A stretch of 64,000 nt of DNA from Rhodopseudomonas palustris (GTDB lineage: Bacteria > Pseudomonadota > Alphaproteobacteria > Rhizobiales > Xanthobacteraceae): positions 62,001 to 126,000 of the forward strand of contig JACRJB010000025.1 in NCBI GenBank assembly GCA_016215605.1, given 5' to 3'. The notes beneath the pieces are model-generated. The model was not told the origin of the DNA, ran no database searches, and saw nothing but the letters and a program-made list of their open reading frames with translations. Shown here piece by piece: positions 28,970 to 36,139 of this stretch. The stretch's first letter is position 1. Every line of letters begins with the position of its first letter. The translations under genes were made by a program, and so were the position numbers.

Positions 28970-32047
<3,078 letters not shown>

Positions 32048-33267: not shown

Positions 33268-33612
33268 TCAGCGACGAGCCGCCACCTCGATCACTGCCTC
33301 TTGCCGTTCGATTGCTGCGAGGATCGCCGGCAGCGCTCCGGTGACCTGATCGATCAGGCCGCGATTGCCTACATTTCCCGACCTGATCCAGATGATGGTA
33401 GGACCGCTATCAGAGGCCGCCCGGATCATCAGGAAGTCCCGATCTTTTGTCACCAGAGCCGCGGACTGTTCGACCGCCGCGCTCCAAATCTGACGATCGG
33501 TGGCGGAGAGCAGGCCGAGATCCGCGACGTGAACGGCATCGAAACCGGCATGCCTGAATGCCTCCGCCAGCGCCGGTGGAAGTTGGGCATCGATCAGGAA
33601 CCGCGGACTCAT
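33268..33612 (-). CDS. DUF5615 PIN-like protein, probable toxin
   Basis: 114-residue protein of the DUF5615 family, PIN-like nuclease fold. MSPRFLIDAQLPPALAEA has the first acidic residue (Asp8) and VTKDRDFLMI the second conserved acidic part (KDRDF), as in PIN nucleases. It is cotranscribed with a DUF433 gene, whose stop overlaps its start codon by 4 bp (ATGA). That pairing is common and is regarded as a toxin-antitoxin module, although few examples were tested. Targets are unknown. Confidence 0.85.
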   Translation of the reverse strand: MSPRFLIDAQLPPALAEAFRHAGFDAVHVADLGLLSATDRQIWSAAVEQSAALVTKDRDFLMIRAASDSGPTIIWIRSGNVGNRGLIDQVTGALPAILAAIERQEAVIEVAARR

Positions 33613-33836
33613 TCCGCCGCGATGATCGGGTGATCCGCTTGCTTTGCTGCGAAGGCCAGCACCGCGTCAATATCCGCGTCTTCCAGGTACGGATAGTCGC
33701 GCAGGATATCATCACGTGACGCACCCGTGGAGAGCTGCGCCAACACGTCGGCGACGCTAATCCGCATGCCGCGGATGCAAGGGCGACCGTGCAACACGTC
33801 CGGATCGATGGTGATGCGTGCGAGAAGGTCCGACAT
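33609..33836 (-). CDS. DUF433 protein, probable antitoxin
   Basis: 75-residue DUF433 protein with a compact DNA-binding (winged-helix-like) fold in this family. MSDLLARITIDPDVLHGRPCIRGMRISVADVL is the family pattern (HGRPCIRGMRI). TGAGG lies upstream of the ATG. It is the first gene of the pair and its 3' end overlaps the DUF5615 start, so the two are translated together. It likely neutralises the partner and may bind the promoter. Confidence 0.87.
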   Translation of the reverse strand: MSDLLARITIDPDVLHGRPCIRGMRISVADVLAQLSTGASRDDILRDYPYLEDADIDAVLAFAAKQADHPIIAAE

Positions 33837-33954
33837 CGAATACCTCAGTGTGAACCATAGCATCGGCAGGGGCTTCTGTCAGCGTGATCGGCGGATCACC
33901 CGTCGCCCCCGAATGTGTCTCGCCCTCCCGCCCCCGCCCGTCTACACTCCCGCC

Positions 33955-34323: not shown

Positions 34324-34665
34324 GCGGGTCCGGCGCGTGCGATCCCCGCGCCTGACAAGGACGCTGCACTGGGTGTGAAAGCAAAGTCCCTCCACGCGTG
34401 ATGGCCGGGCTTGTCCCGGCCTGCCGCACACGCCGTCATTCCGGACGGTGCGCGGAGCGCGCCGATCCGGAATCCCGAGATGTCGGCCGACTGAGCGGCG
34501 CCGAGATTCCGGGTTCGCCCGCCGCTGCGCGGCGGCCGCCCCGGAATGACTCGGGGAGAGGTTGTCGCGTCCGCTTCGCGCGTCGAACGAGGTCTATTCA
34601 AGAGCAGCTCGTCGCGACAGAGACGACCCAGACATCCAGCCTTTCATCCGCCCGAAACAATCCGC
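34324..34665. other. Intergenic stretch with interspersed repeats
   Basis: 342 bases with no believable gene. It holds a GATGGCCGGG-CTTGT-CCCGGCC hairpin near 34400, the inverted-repeat element at 34435-34550, and then about 115 bases of unremarkable sequence before the promoter of the structured RNA element. Confidence 0.6.
34435..34550. repeat. Interspersed palindromic repeat with GTCATTCCGG ends
   Basis: 116-bp element with terminal inverted repeats GTCATTCCGG (34435-34444) and CCGGAATGAC (34541-34550), plus internal hairpins such as GCCGCTGCGCGGC. Typical of the palindromic repeats of Bradyrhizobium-like genomes (recall). Confidence 0.7.
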
Positions 34666-34695
34666 TTGACAGGACTTTAAACCTGTGATTATAGT
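34666..34695 (+). promoter_or_regulatory. Strong housekeeping-type promoter
   Basis: TTGACA at 34666-34671 and TATAGT at 34690-34695 with an 18-bp spacer (or TTATAG with 17 bp). The -35 is perfect and the -10 differs from TATAAT at one place. It points into the folded region that follows, and the first start codon of the next gene is nearly 700 bp away. Confidence 0.65.
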
Positions 34696-34699
34696 CCGC

Positions 34700-35217
34700 T
34701 CGTCCCGCCTCGCTGCGAGGGGCGTTCGCGATCGTCACGGACGCGGGGTGGGATGCGGTGGACGGGAGCGGCGTTCTGGCCTCCGATCGCGCCACGGGTA
34801 ACCGTGGCGCGTGAGCAGGGGTCGACGACCCGCGCGGCTCCCGGACGGCCAAAGTCGCGATATCCCGGCGCATCGCCTTGCGCAGGGAGCAGCGCCAAGC
34901 CGTGCCGACCACCGGGGGACGAGCGCCGGCCCACAAGGCGGCGGTCGAAACCCACCGGTCGGCAAGGACGGTGCGTCAGCCTCCCGCAATGGTGGATTAC
35001 TCAGGGCCGCCCACCAGGGGTCTTCGCGAACCAAGCCGTTAAAACCGCCGCGTGCGGAACGCCGGGCGTTTCCGGTGTGACCGTGGTGACTACGCTCGTG
35101 TGCTTTTGTTTGTTGCACACGAGGCCGCGGGTGCATCGGGCACCCGGCGTTCCGCGCGCCCTCGTGATCCCGAGGGCGGAACGTTCACCGCAAACCCCGG
35201 GCGCTTCGCGCCGCGGG
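34700..35217 (+). ncRNA. Structured non-coding RNA candidate, about 520 nt
   Basis: No coding sequence fits, but the strand folds richly. There is a perfect 9-bp stem GCGCCACGG/CCGTGGCGC closed by a GTAA (GNRA-class) tetraloop at 34789-34810, and GGGTC-GAC-GACCC at 34819-34831. A long-range 13-bp perfect pairing GCGGAACGCCGGG (35054-35066) with CCCGGCGTTCCGC (35143-35155) encloses CTCGTGTGC/GCACACGAG (35095-35123) and GGGTGC/GCACCC. GCCCTC/GAGGGC follows, and a final GGCGC-TTC-GCGCC hairpin ends near 35217. A strong promoter precedes. I associate similar sequences with multicopy intergenic elements in Bradyrhizobium-like genomes, from memory only. The ends given are inferred from the promoter and the last hairpin. 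Confidence 0.55.
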
Positions 35218-35362
35218 ATCGGAGATCCGTGGGTGGCGACCGCCGAGCACGATCGCGACGCGCCGCCGGCGAAGCCGGTGCGCAGAGGCGCGGGAGCGGC
35301 ACCGTCCCGGCCCATAAGCGGCCCCATTGCCTGCCCGCCCGTCCCGGTCCAAGACTGACGCC

Positions 35363-36139
35363 ATGACCCTGCACGATGTCCGCGCCACCATCCGCGAACT
35401 CTACGACGGCGTCACGCCGCGCGGCGTGGTGTTTCGCTACGCGCTGCTGGCGTTCGACATCGCCACCATCGCGTTCATCGTCGGCACCTCGTTCCTGCCG
35501 GCGAACCCGATCGTCGAGACGCTCGACATCGGCTTCGGCGCGCTGATCCTGATCGACTTTTTCGCGCGGCTCTATGCCAGCCGCCGTCCGCTGCGCGAAT
35601 TCGCCCGGCTGGCGACCTGGACGGATCTCGTCGCCATCCTGTCGTTCCTGGCGCCGCTGCAGGGCGAAGGCGCCGGCTTCCTGCGCATCCTGCGCACGCT
35701 GCGGGCGTTTCAGGACTATCAGATGCTGACGCGGCTGCGCAGCGACAGCGCCTTCTTCCGCCGCCACGAGGAGGTGGTGATCGCGGTGGCGCGCCTCGCG
35801 GTGTTCATCTTCGTGATGACGGCGATCGTGTTCGAGACGCAGAAATTCAGCAATCCGCAGATCGCCAACTACGCCGACGCGCTGTACTTCACCGTCACCG
35901 CGCTGACCACCACCGGGTTCGGCGACATCACGCTGCCCGGCACCACCGGGCGGCTGATCAGCGTCGTGATCATGATCTTCGGCGTCACGCTGTTCTTCAA
36001 TCTGGCGCGCGCGCTGATCAGCCCGAACAAGGTGCGCTTCCCCTGCCCGGTCTGCGCGCTGCAGCGCCACGACGCCGACGCGGTGCATTGCAAGGCTTGC
36101 GGCACGGTGCTGAACATTCCCGACGAGGGGCTGAGCTAG
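35363..36139 (+). CDS. Voltage-gated-type potassium channel with C-terminal zinc ribbon
   Basis: 258-residue membrane protein with six predicted spans like a small voltage-gated channel. The fourth segment is RILRTLRAFQDYQMLTRLR, with regularly spaced Arg, and the pore loop TALTTTGFGDI is a variant of the K+ filter TxxTVGYGD. After the last span comes a short tail with two CXXC pairs (CPVCALQ...HCKACG), a zinc ribbon that could sense redox or metal. Start at ATG 35363 without a strong ribosome site. It follows the non-coding element and precedes a convergent gene. Ion selectivity is inferred. Confidence 0.85.
   Translation: MTLHDVRATIRELYDGVTPRGVVFRYALLAFDIATIAFIVGTSFLPANPIVETLDIGFGALILIDFFARLYASRRPLREFARLATWTDLVAILSFLAPLQGEGAGFLRILRTLRAFQDYQMLTRLRSDSAFFRRHEEVVIAVARLAVFIFVMTAIVFETQKFSNPQIANYADALYFTVTALTTTGFGDITLPGTTGRLISVVIMIFGVTLFFNLARALISPNKVRFPCPVCALQRHDADAVHCKACGTVLNIPDEGLS

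Follow-up and report, generated by a model that had tools for sequence, protein, structure and literature searches.

The window, the whole stretch of 64,000 nucleotides of Rhodopseudomonas palustris DNA that was analysed, carries from 34666 to about 35225 of its + strand a copy of an element which, judging from comparison of its relatives, is likely a member of a multigene family of structured non-coding RNAs of roughly 380-650 nt that would have their own sigma-70-type promoters and act as RNA. The copy belongs to family A, which together with a sister family B makes up a superfamily of large structured RNAs that is real and for which no earlier description was found. A sequence-only reading of the same DNA had proposed a multicopy structured RNA of ~520 nt with its own promoter, and the comparison supports this through recurring promoter hexamers, a conserved fold and dispersed copies; that reading did not extend to the sister family, to a boxA-like tail or to the probable exchange of bodies between promoters that stay in place. 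The parts of the window copy are as follows, the GTAA-loop hairpin, the inner hairpins of the 3′ core and the last two hairpins being read from the letters themselves.

34666-34695, + strand: promoter, with -35 TTGACA at 34666-34671, an 18-nt spacer and -10 TATAGT at 34690-34695
34702-35225, + strand: predicted RNA body of family A, with its start near 34702 and its 3′ end at about 35217-35225
34703-34753, + strand: 5′ domain, in which the closing stem 34703-34711/34745-34753 encloses the conserved TCGCGATCGTCACG at 34726-34739
34788-34811, + strand: GTAA-loop hairpin of 10 bp, subtype-specific
35050-35159, + strand: 3′ core, a 14-pair helix 35050-35063/35146-35159 (one pair G-U) around hairpins 35095-35123 and 35129-35145
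35095-35103/35115-35123 (9 bp) and 35129-35134/35140-35145, + strand: inner hairpins of the 3′ core
35159-35176, + strand: hairpin CCCTC...GAGGG, inverted repeat I9
35196-35217, + strand: GC-rich 3′ terminal hairpin, resembling in form that of sister family B

The element lies between a small secreted-protein-like gene on one side and a channel-like gene with two transmembrane segments (2TM) on the other, both named by their translations. Elsewhere in the window, at 29732-29842, a UvrA-like gene seems to hold what we take to be an in-frame insert (about amino acids 255-291), a peptide resembling translated repeats of the lineage.

Conserved structure, strand and coding potential

Both promoter hexamers claimed by the sequence-only reading are in place, and promoter hexamers also stand upstream of relatives at unrelated loci. 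The start of the RNA is predicted near 34702, close to where homology starts in copies with diverged promoters. In the 5′ domain, the arms pair with their own partners better than in all 200 of 200 shuffles (152 unique arm pairs). The GTAA stem is present as proposed, but it has 10 bp rather than 9 and is rare among the relatives, being found in just 8 of the 184 5′ regions of family A, which carry 7 different stems between them. The proposed long-range pairing likewise exists and encloses the 9-bp hairpin, with 14 pairs including one G-U instead of the 13 originally counted, and the further hairpins up to the final GC-rich one were also recovered. The predicted RNA has a minimum free energy of -310.7 kcal/mol against a shuffled mean of -267.5 (z -6.8, 0 of 100 shuffles as low), so that the density of pairing is indeed beyond chance.

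Compensatory changes in the stems, which had been named beforehand as the point at which the RNA proposal could fail, are present. In alignment A5 of the 3′ core (70 matches from 71 selected loci, with the E-value tightened so that antisense matches fall out), which is fitted to the structure model and thereby biased towards that structure, 99.0% of the cells are paired and 17 of the 29 pairs are changed on both sides, compared with a shuffled mean of 9.7; none of 500 shuffles reaches this number, and slid versions give at most 8. An independent RNAalifold fold of 71 copies has double changes in 14 of 24 pairs, alignment A1 comprising 71 of the 119 distinct 3′ domains. Double changes occur among the pairs of the terminal hairpin in family A and in family B. 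The covariance model of the 3′ core, R1 (120 positions), and alignment A3 were built from 24 sequences, Bradyrhizobium-type rows misaligned by MAFFT being left out, and in this model-building set 99.9% of the cells are paired. When scored in the same loci, R1 gives 51-139 bits in the sense and at most 47 bits in the antisense orientation, and the one-sided changes in A5 are mostly G-U, which together indicate the + strand.

A protein-coding reading was rejected, since only 21 of the 371 gap runs in the 3′ domain of 71 copies are multiples of three and an open reading frame is shared by at most 25 of the 71 copies in any frame, in agreement with the earlier statement that the region has no believable reading frame. 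The window copy hence probably belongs to a group of large structured, non-coding RNAs with compensatory changes, as far as alignments can tell.

Sister family B, the boxA-like tail and the promoters

Family B resembles family A in its promoter, first ~20 nt and 3′ hairpin, has the same tail, and differs from it in the body. A tail resembling GGCTGTTTGACAATTGAATC is present behind many copies, in 39 of the 148 distinct downstream stretches. A search for it in three genomes gave 11 places, 3 behind family A, 7 behind family B and 1 alone; at this last locus (L221, G005 C1:770147) the tail motif reads GGCTGTTTGACAATCGAATC and no element signature is seen within 800 nt upstream. With up to 2 mismatches the tail has 12 sites in the window's own genome (G000) and 22 in G066 and is present in 12 of 14 genomes, while the reversed pattern, used as control, matched once in total over the 14. 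All 20 tails next fetched from three genomes proved to be those of B elements, the promoter being visible in 14 and cut off by a contig end in 6, and an A or B-like element precedes each of the 15 further tails examined, among which the L334 copy recurs.

The fold of family B has a z of -3.7. In three of its hairpins 96.1% of the cells are paired and the double-changed cells exceed those of 500 of 500 shuffles, whereas the number of double-changed pairs, 3, is reached by 168 of 500; alignment A7 holds 27 of the 38 tail-bearing sequences found, and those dropped include one family-A copy. The B-type 5′ stem has in 47 copies a mean of 6.02 of 7 pairs, with a shuffle maximum of 5.85 (30 shuffles), and 4 perfect stems, equal to the best shuffle, and is thus weakly supported.

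The first 13 bases of the tail, GGCTGTTTGACAA, are identical to a stretch in the 16S rRNA leaders of G149 and G108, the gene having been found in these two genomes and not in the draft G000. We take this stretch to be boxA. A boxA-like core occurs in the tails of many copies; many B copies differ from it at one base, and most of those in G000 depart from GGCTGTTTGACAA in at least one base (GATAA or GATAG). In the window copy no boxA-like tail can be recognised.

A promoter pattern made up of TTGACA, a spacer with TTCCTA, and TATA matches 58 times, in 9 of the 14 genomes, and not at all when reversed. Thirty loci fetched from the 58 matches all front an RNA of the A/B superfamily, 29 being recognised by the 5′ motif and L368 by its core and tail, as established on a recheck after 28 had been recognised by script and two by eye; 27 of the 30 also have a core or tail within 760 nt, and three show the 5′ start only. 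From these pattern matches, the extended TTCCTA promoter looks dedicated to these RNAs. The window copy keeps the hexamers and is without the TTCCTA motif that many relatives have, and the Bradyrhizobium-type copies mostly have other upstream sequence instead of TTGACA. A second promoter type was seen before L024, L045, L307 and L314, in which TTGACA/TATA give way to TCTTAT and a palindrome similar to GGGGATACGTATCCCC, which is perfect in L045.

Distribution and the probable exchange of bodies between loci

Of 149 genomes from the family that were sampled, 59 have relatives by BLAST, these belonging to 21 of 47 genera, and a pattern scan of named genomes gave at least 120 stretches, the matches listed including Bradyrhizobium, Tardiphaga, Afipia, Rhodopseudomonas and several MAGs. 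This bears out the suggestion in the sequence-only reading that similar sequences are multicopy in Bradyrhizobium-like genomes. R1 matches 16 of 61 genomes, among them G000, and has no match in the 24 genomes from other families of the order under stricter filters; such filters were used in the searches across more than 40 genomes, where weak copies may be missed. Counted as sense matches only, with antisense matches excluded, the family-A 3′ core occurs 3 times in G000, which agrees with the predicted repetition in the own genome, 9 times in G141, where contig ends truncate two of the copies, 3 times in G149, twice in G108, 10 times in G016 and 17 times in G024. R1 finds no family-A copy in the complete, one-contig relative G125, and the element is thus dispensable. 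Several assemblies have contigs ending inside copies and that of G000 breaks at many; as read mapping also often drops repeats, the copies are easily overlooked. In G024 (L251-L267), all 8 family-A copies at 1.83-4.17 Mb are on the + strand and 6 of the 9 at 5.41-7.37 Mb on the - strand, a regional bias that might reflect the direction of replication.

The clearest insight into how the copies are maintained comes from a comparison of orthologous and paralogous loci. The orthologues L174 (G149) and L285 (G108) are 96.0% identical in the 200 nt upstream and 97.4% in the promoter, but only 65.4% in the body, whereas the paralogues L174 and L159 of G149 are 99.0% identical in the body, 69.2% in the promoter and 45.8% upstream, their flanks differing at about 46% identity. 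A shared promoter in front of unlike bodies in the first pair and identity of the bodies in the second suggest that bodies have changed places while the promoters stayed resident, homologous recombination (gene conversion) between the loci being the probable means. The 5′ breakpoint between L174 and L285 falls within the first ~10 nt of the predicted RNA. The 3′ core is nearly unchanged between the two and the next 200 nt downstream are 41.0% identical, G149 having about 1 kb downstream of L174 that G108 is without, and the exchanged stretch is therefore bounded on the 5′ side only.

Similar relations are seen in other genomes. In G066, four copies have near-identical bodies and diverged promoters, and among 78 within-genome pairs 11, from 7 genomes and 5 of them from G066, have at least 90% identity at +76 to +300. 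The mean identity of these 11 pairs is 52.9% at -100 to -41, 74.1% at -40 to -1, 97.4% at +1 to +75 and 94.7% at +76 to +300, with +1 placed by pattern and in some pairs displaced by a few bases, so that the L159/L174 promoter appears at 52.2% instead of 69.2%. In other pairs, such as L277/L283, the 5′ 75 nt are about 92% identical and the next 225 nt below 30% (gaps counted), which makes these copies mosaics. The breakpoint near +1 could simply be the end of the paralogue homology, and in a pair from G152 homology extends upstream past the promoter; both points count against the proposed reading. Overall, the alignments are best read as showing RNA genes that are multicopy and dispensable, evolve in concert and exchange their bodies under resident promoters.

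A different account, possible though in our estimate doubtful, is that the element is a non-autonomous mobile repeat (a MITE, REP-derived or other) which is incidentally transcribed and strongly folded. Within one genus the sense copies of family A vary from 9 in G141 to 3, 2 and 0 in G149, G108 and G125, and few sites are shared between genomes: 17 usable family-B upstream flanks from three genomes yielded one clear cross-genome orthologous pair (L320/L331, 93% over 498 nt), and there is one family-B downstream flank pair (L327/L220, 77% over 303 nt). The L159 site in G108 has neither the element nor the adjoining REP-like DNA, the junctions of this empty site not being clean, and the same flank in G000 is adjoined by a family-B element at a contig end. 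REP-like motifs are found upstream of 29, downstream of 48 and on both sides of 8 of 148 copies, compared with 11 of 280 control windows; with both-sided motifs at so few copies, REPs were rejected as the ends of a mobile unit. However, near-identical bodies with diverging promoters and flanks are the opposite of what fresh transposition of a single unit would leave. The window copy has no bounding terminal inverted repeats, queries of families A and B had no match in plasmids or phages, and two exact patterns searched in viral contigs gave none; two short weak plasmid matches of a Bradyrhizobium-type copy, one inside an annotated hypothetical protein, were not accepted as elements.

The mobility enzymes likewise speak against such a repeat. 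The searches covered RVT_1 and the Y1 transposase (Y1_Tnp) in 16 genomes. RVT_1 has no match in 9 of them (G000, G108, G141, G125, G150, G066, G065, G016 and G005), several being high-copy, so that the element was not placed among retro-elements; the 7 genomes with matches include G149 and G152 with one each and the high-copy G024 with ten. Y1_Tnp is without a match in 11 and has one match each in G152, G154, G089, G024 and G016, of which G016 and G024 are high-copy, and with this and a length of ~500 nt the element was not assigned to REP/RAYT systems. Reverse transcription and Y1 transposition are consequently disfavoured as mechanisms of spread, and the exchange is most simply explained by homologous recombination between copies.

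It is also conceivable, if unlikely, that the element is a DNA-level structure or recombination hot spot without RNA function. Its strong inverted repeats, the exchange of bodies between loci and the intergenic location would suit this: the genes on either side converge at 31 of 80 copies, the most frequent arrangement, are in tandem at 21 and 17 and diverge at 11 (genes called by a simple script, orthologous loci included). It is contradicted by the G-U pairs, which favour one strand, by a sense model score far above the antisense one and by promoter hexamers at a fixed place 5′ of the structure. Quite unlikely, in turn, is an RNA-templated, reverse-transcribed conversion of resident copies that would put the breakpoint at +1. 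The breakpoints do lie no more than about 10 nt from the predicted start, and G149, with the clearest exchange, and G152 each have one RVT_1 match, but six genomes rich in A or B (G000, G141, G066, G065, G016 and G005) have none, and gene conversion at the DNA level would give this boundary too, homology ending at that point.

Finally, it is very improbable that the element acts in cis as leader or riboswitch for the gene that follows it, in the window the co-oriented channel-like gene that begins at 35363, about 140 nt downstream. This reading was rejected on gene orientation and neighbours, as the downstream gene is co-oriented in just 32 of the 80 copies, the 160 flanking proteins fall into 134 clusters with no fixed neighbour, and at the channel locus the element is present in G000, G152 and G155, decayed in G067 and not found in 11 of 16 genomes (in G151 the locus is not visible, the contig ending there). 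In relatives, stretches similar to window positions 33268-33863 lie, antisense, seemingly upstream of the channel gene; in the window this region holds on the - strand two small overlapping genes, presumably a DUF5615 (PIN-like) and DUF433 pair in a toxin-antitoxin-like arrangement.

Possible mode of action and comparison with known systems

In the mechanism proposed for the structured RNA family, the predicted RNA would be transcribed from its own sigma-70-type promoter and would work in trans, and the copies would be homogenised, their bodies exchanged via homologous recombination (gene conversion) between loci. Tentatively, this may be pictured as an RNA cassette system, in which resident dedicated promoter loci dispersed across the chromosome carry interchangeable bodies, exchanged among them with the breakpoint at the transcription start, giving a strain-specific repertoire with common ends (the 5′ stem and a Nus-recruiting, boxA-bearing 3′ tail) and variable middles. 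As for the action itself, the foremost candidate, which we hold weakly, is that the RNAs bind one and the same partner through the 5′ and 3′ ends they have in common, and that the exchangeable middle varies between copies; the boxA-like tail hints at the Nus transcription machinery as that partner. If true, a chromosomal family of large RNAs with its own promoter type and swapped bodies would represent an unusual upkeep of an RNA repertoire, and the exchange and the covariation model give concrete, testable predictions in easily grown bacteria.

Among the covariance models of Rfam 15, which holds OLE, GOLLD and ROOL, none matches the window at the gathering threshold, the best sub-threshold score being 21.3 bits compared with 43, and in 11 loci (A, B and other-genus copies) the sole match at the cut-off is a tRNA beside one copy; sub-threshold hairpin matches at permissive thresholds were rejected. 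A literature search found no description of the element in titles and abstracts, which does not establish absence from print; Madhugiri et al. 2012, known by reference alone, reportedly deals with small RNAs of this lineage.

Several known systems share single traits with the element. The rRNA operon leaders have GGCTGTTTGACAA in common with the element tails, as G149 and G108 show in their 16S leaders, but in the element the motif is at the 3′ end and not in a 5′ leader, and it is often varied or absent. The Bradyrhizobium small RNAs BjsR1-10 differ in their reported copy numbers, which are lower than that of the element in the available part of the source (PMC5082802). Br-REP1 and Br-REP2, said in the same part to occur in Bradyrhizobium and Rhodopseudomonas, are repeated palindromes of the same lineage as the element, and a cluster of REP-like palindromes resembling them lies in the window at about 34434-34550, ~115 nt 5′ of the promoter; they are, however, tens of bases long, and their consensus sequences as printed there differ from the element (PMC5082802). 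There is also a likeness in kind to OLE, GOLLD and ROOL, which, as portrayed in the accessible portion of the source, are like the element long and highly structured bacterial RNAs (PMC12286853). In contrast to these, the element reaches no Rfam cut-off and is multicopy, with a common promoter type and exchangeable bodies.
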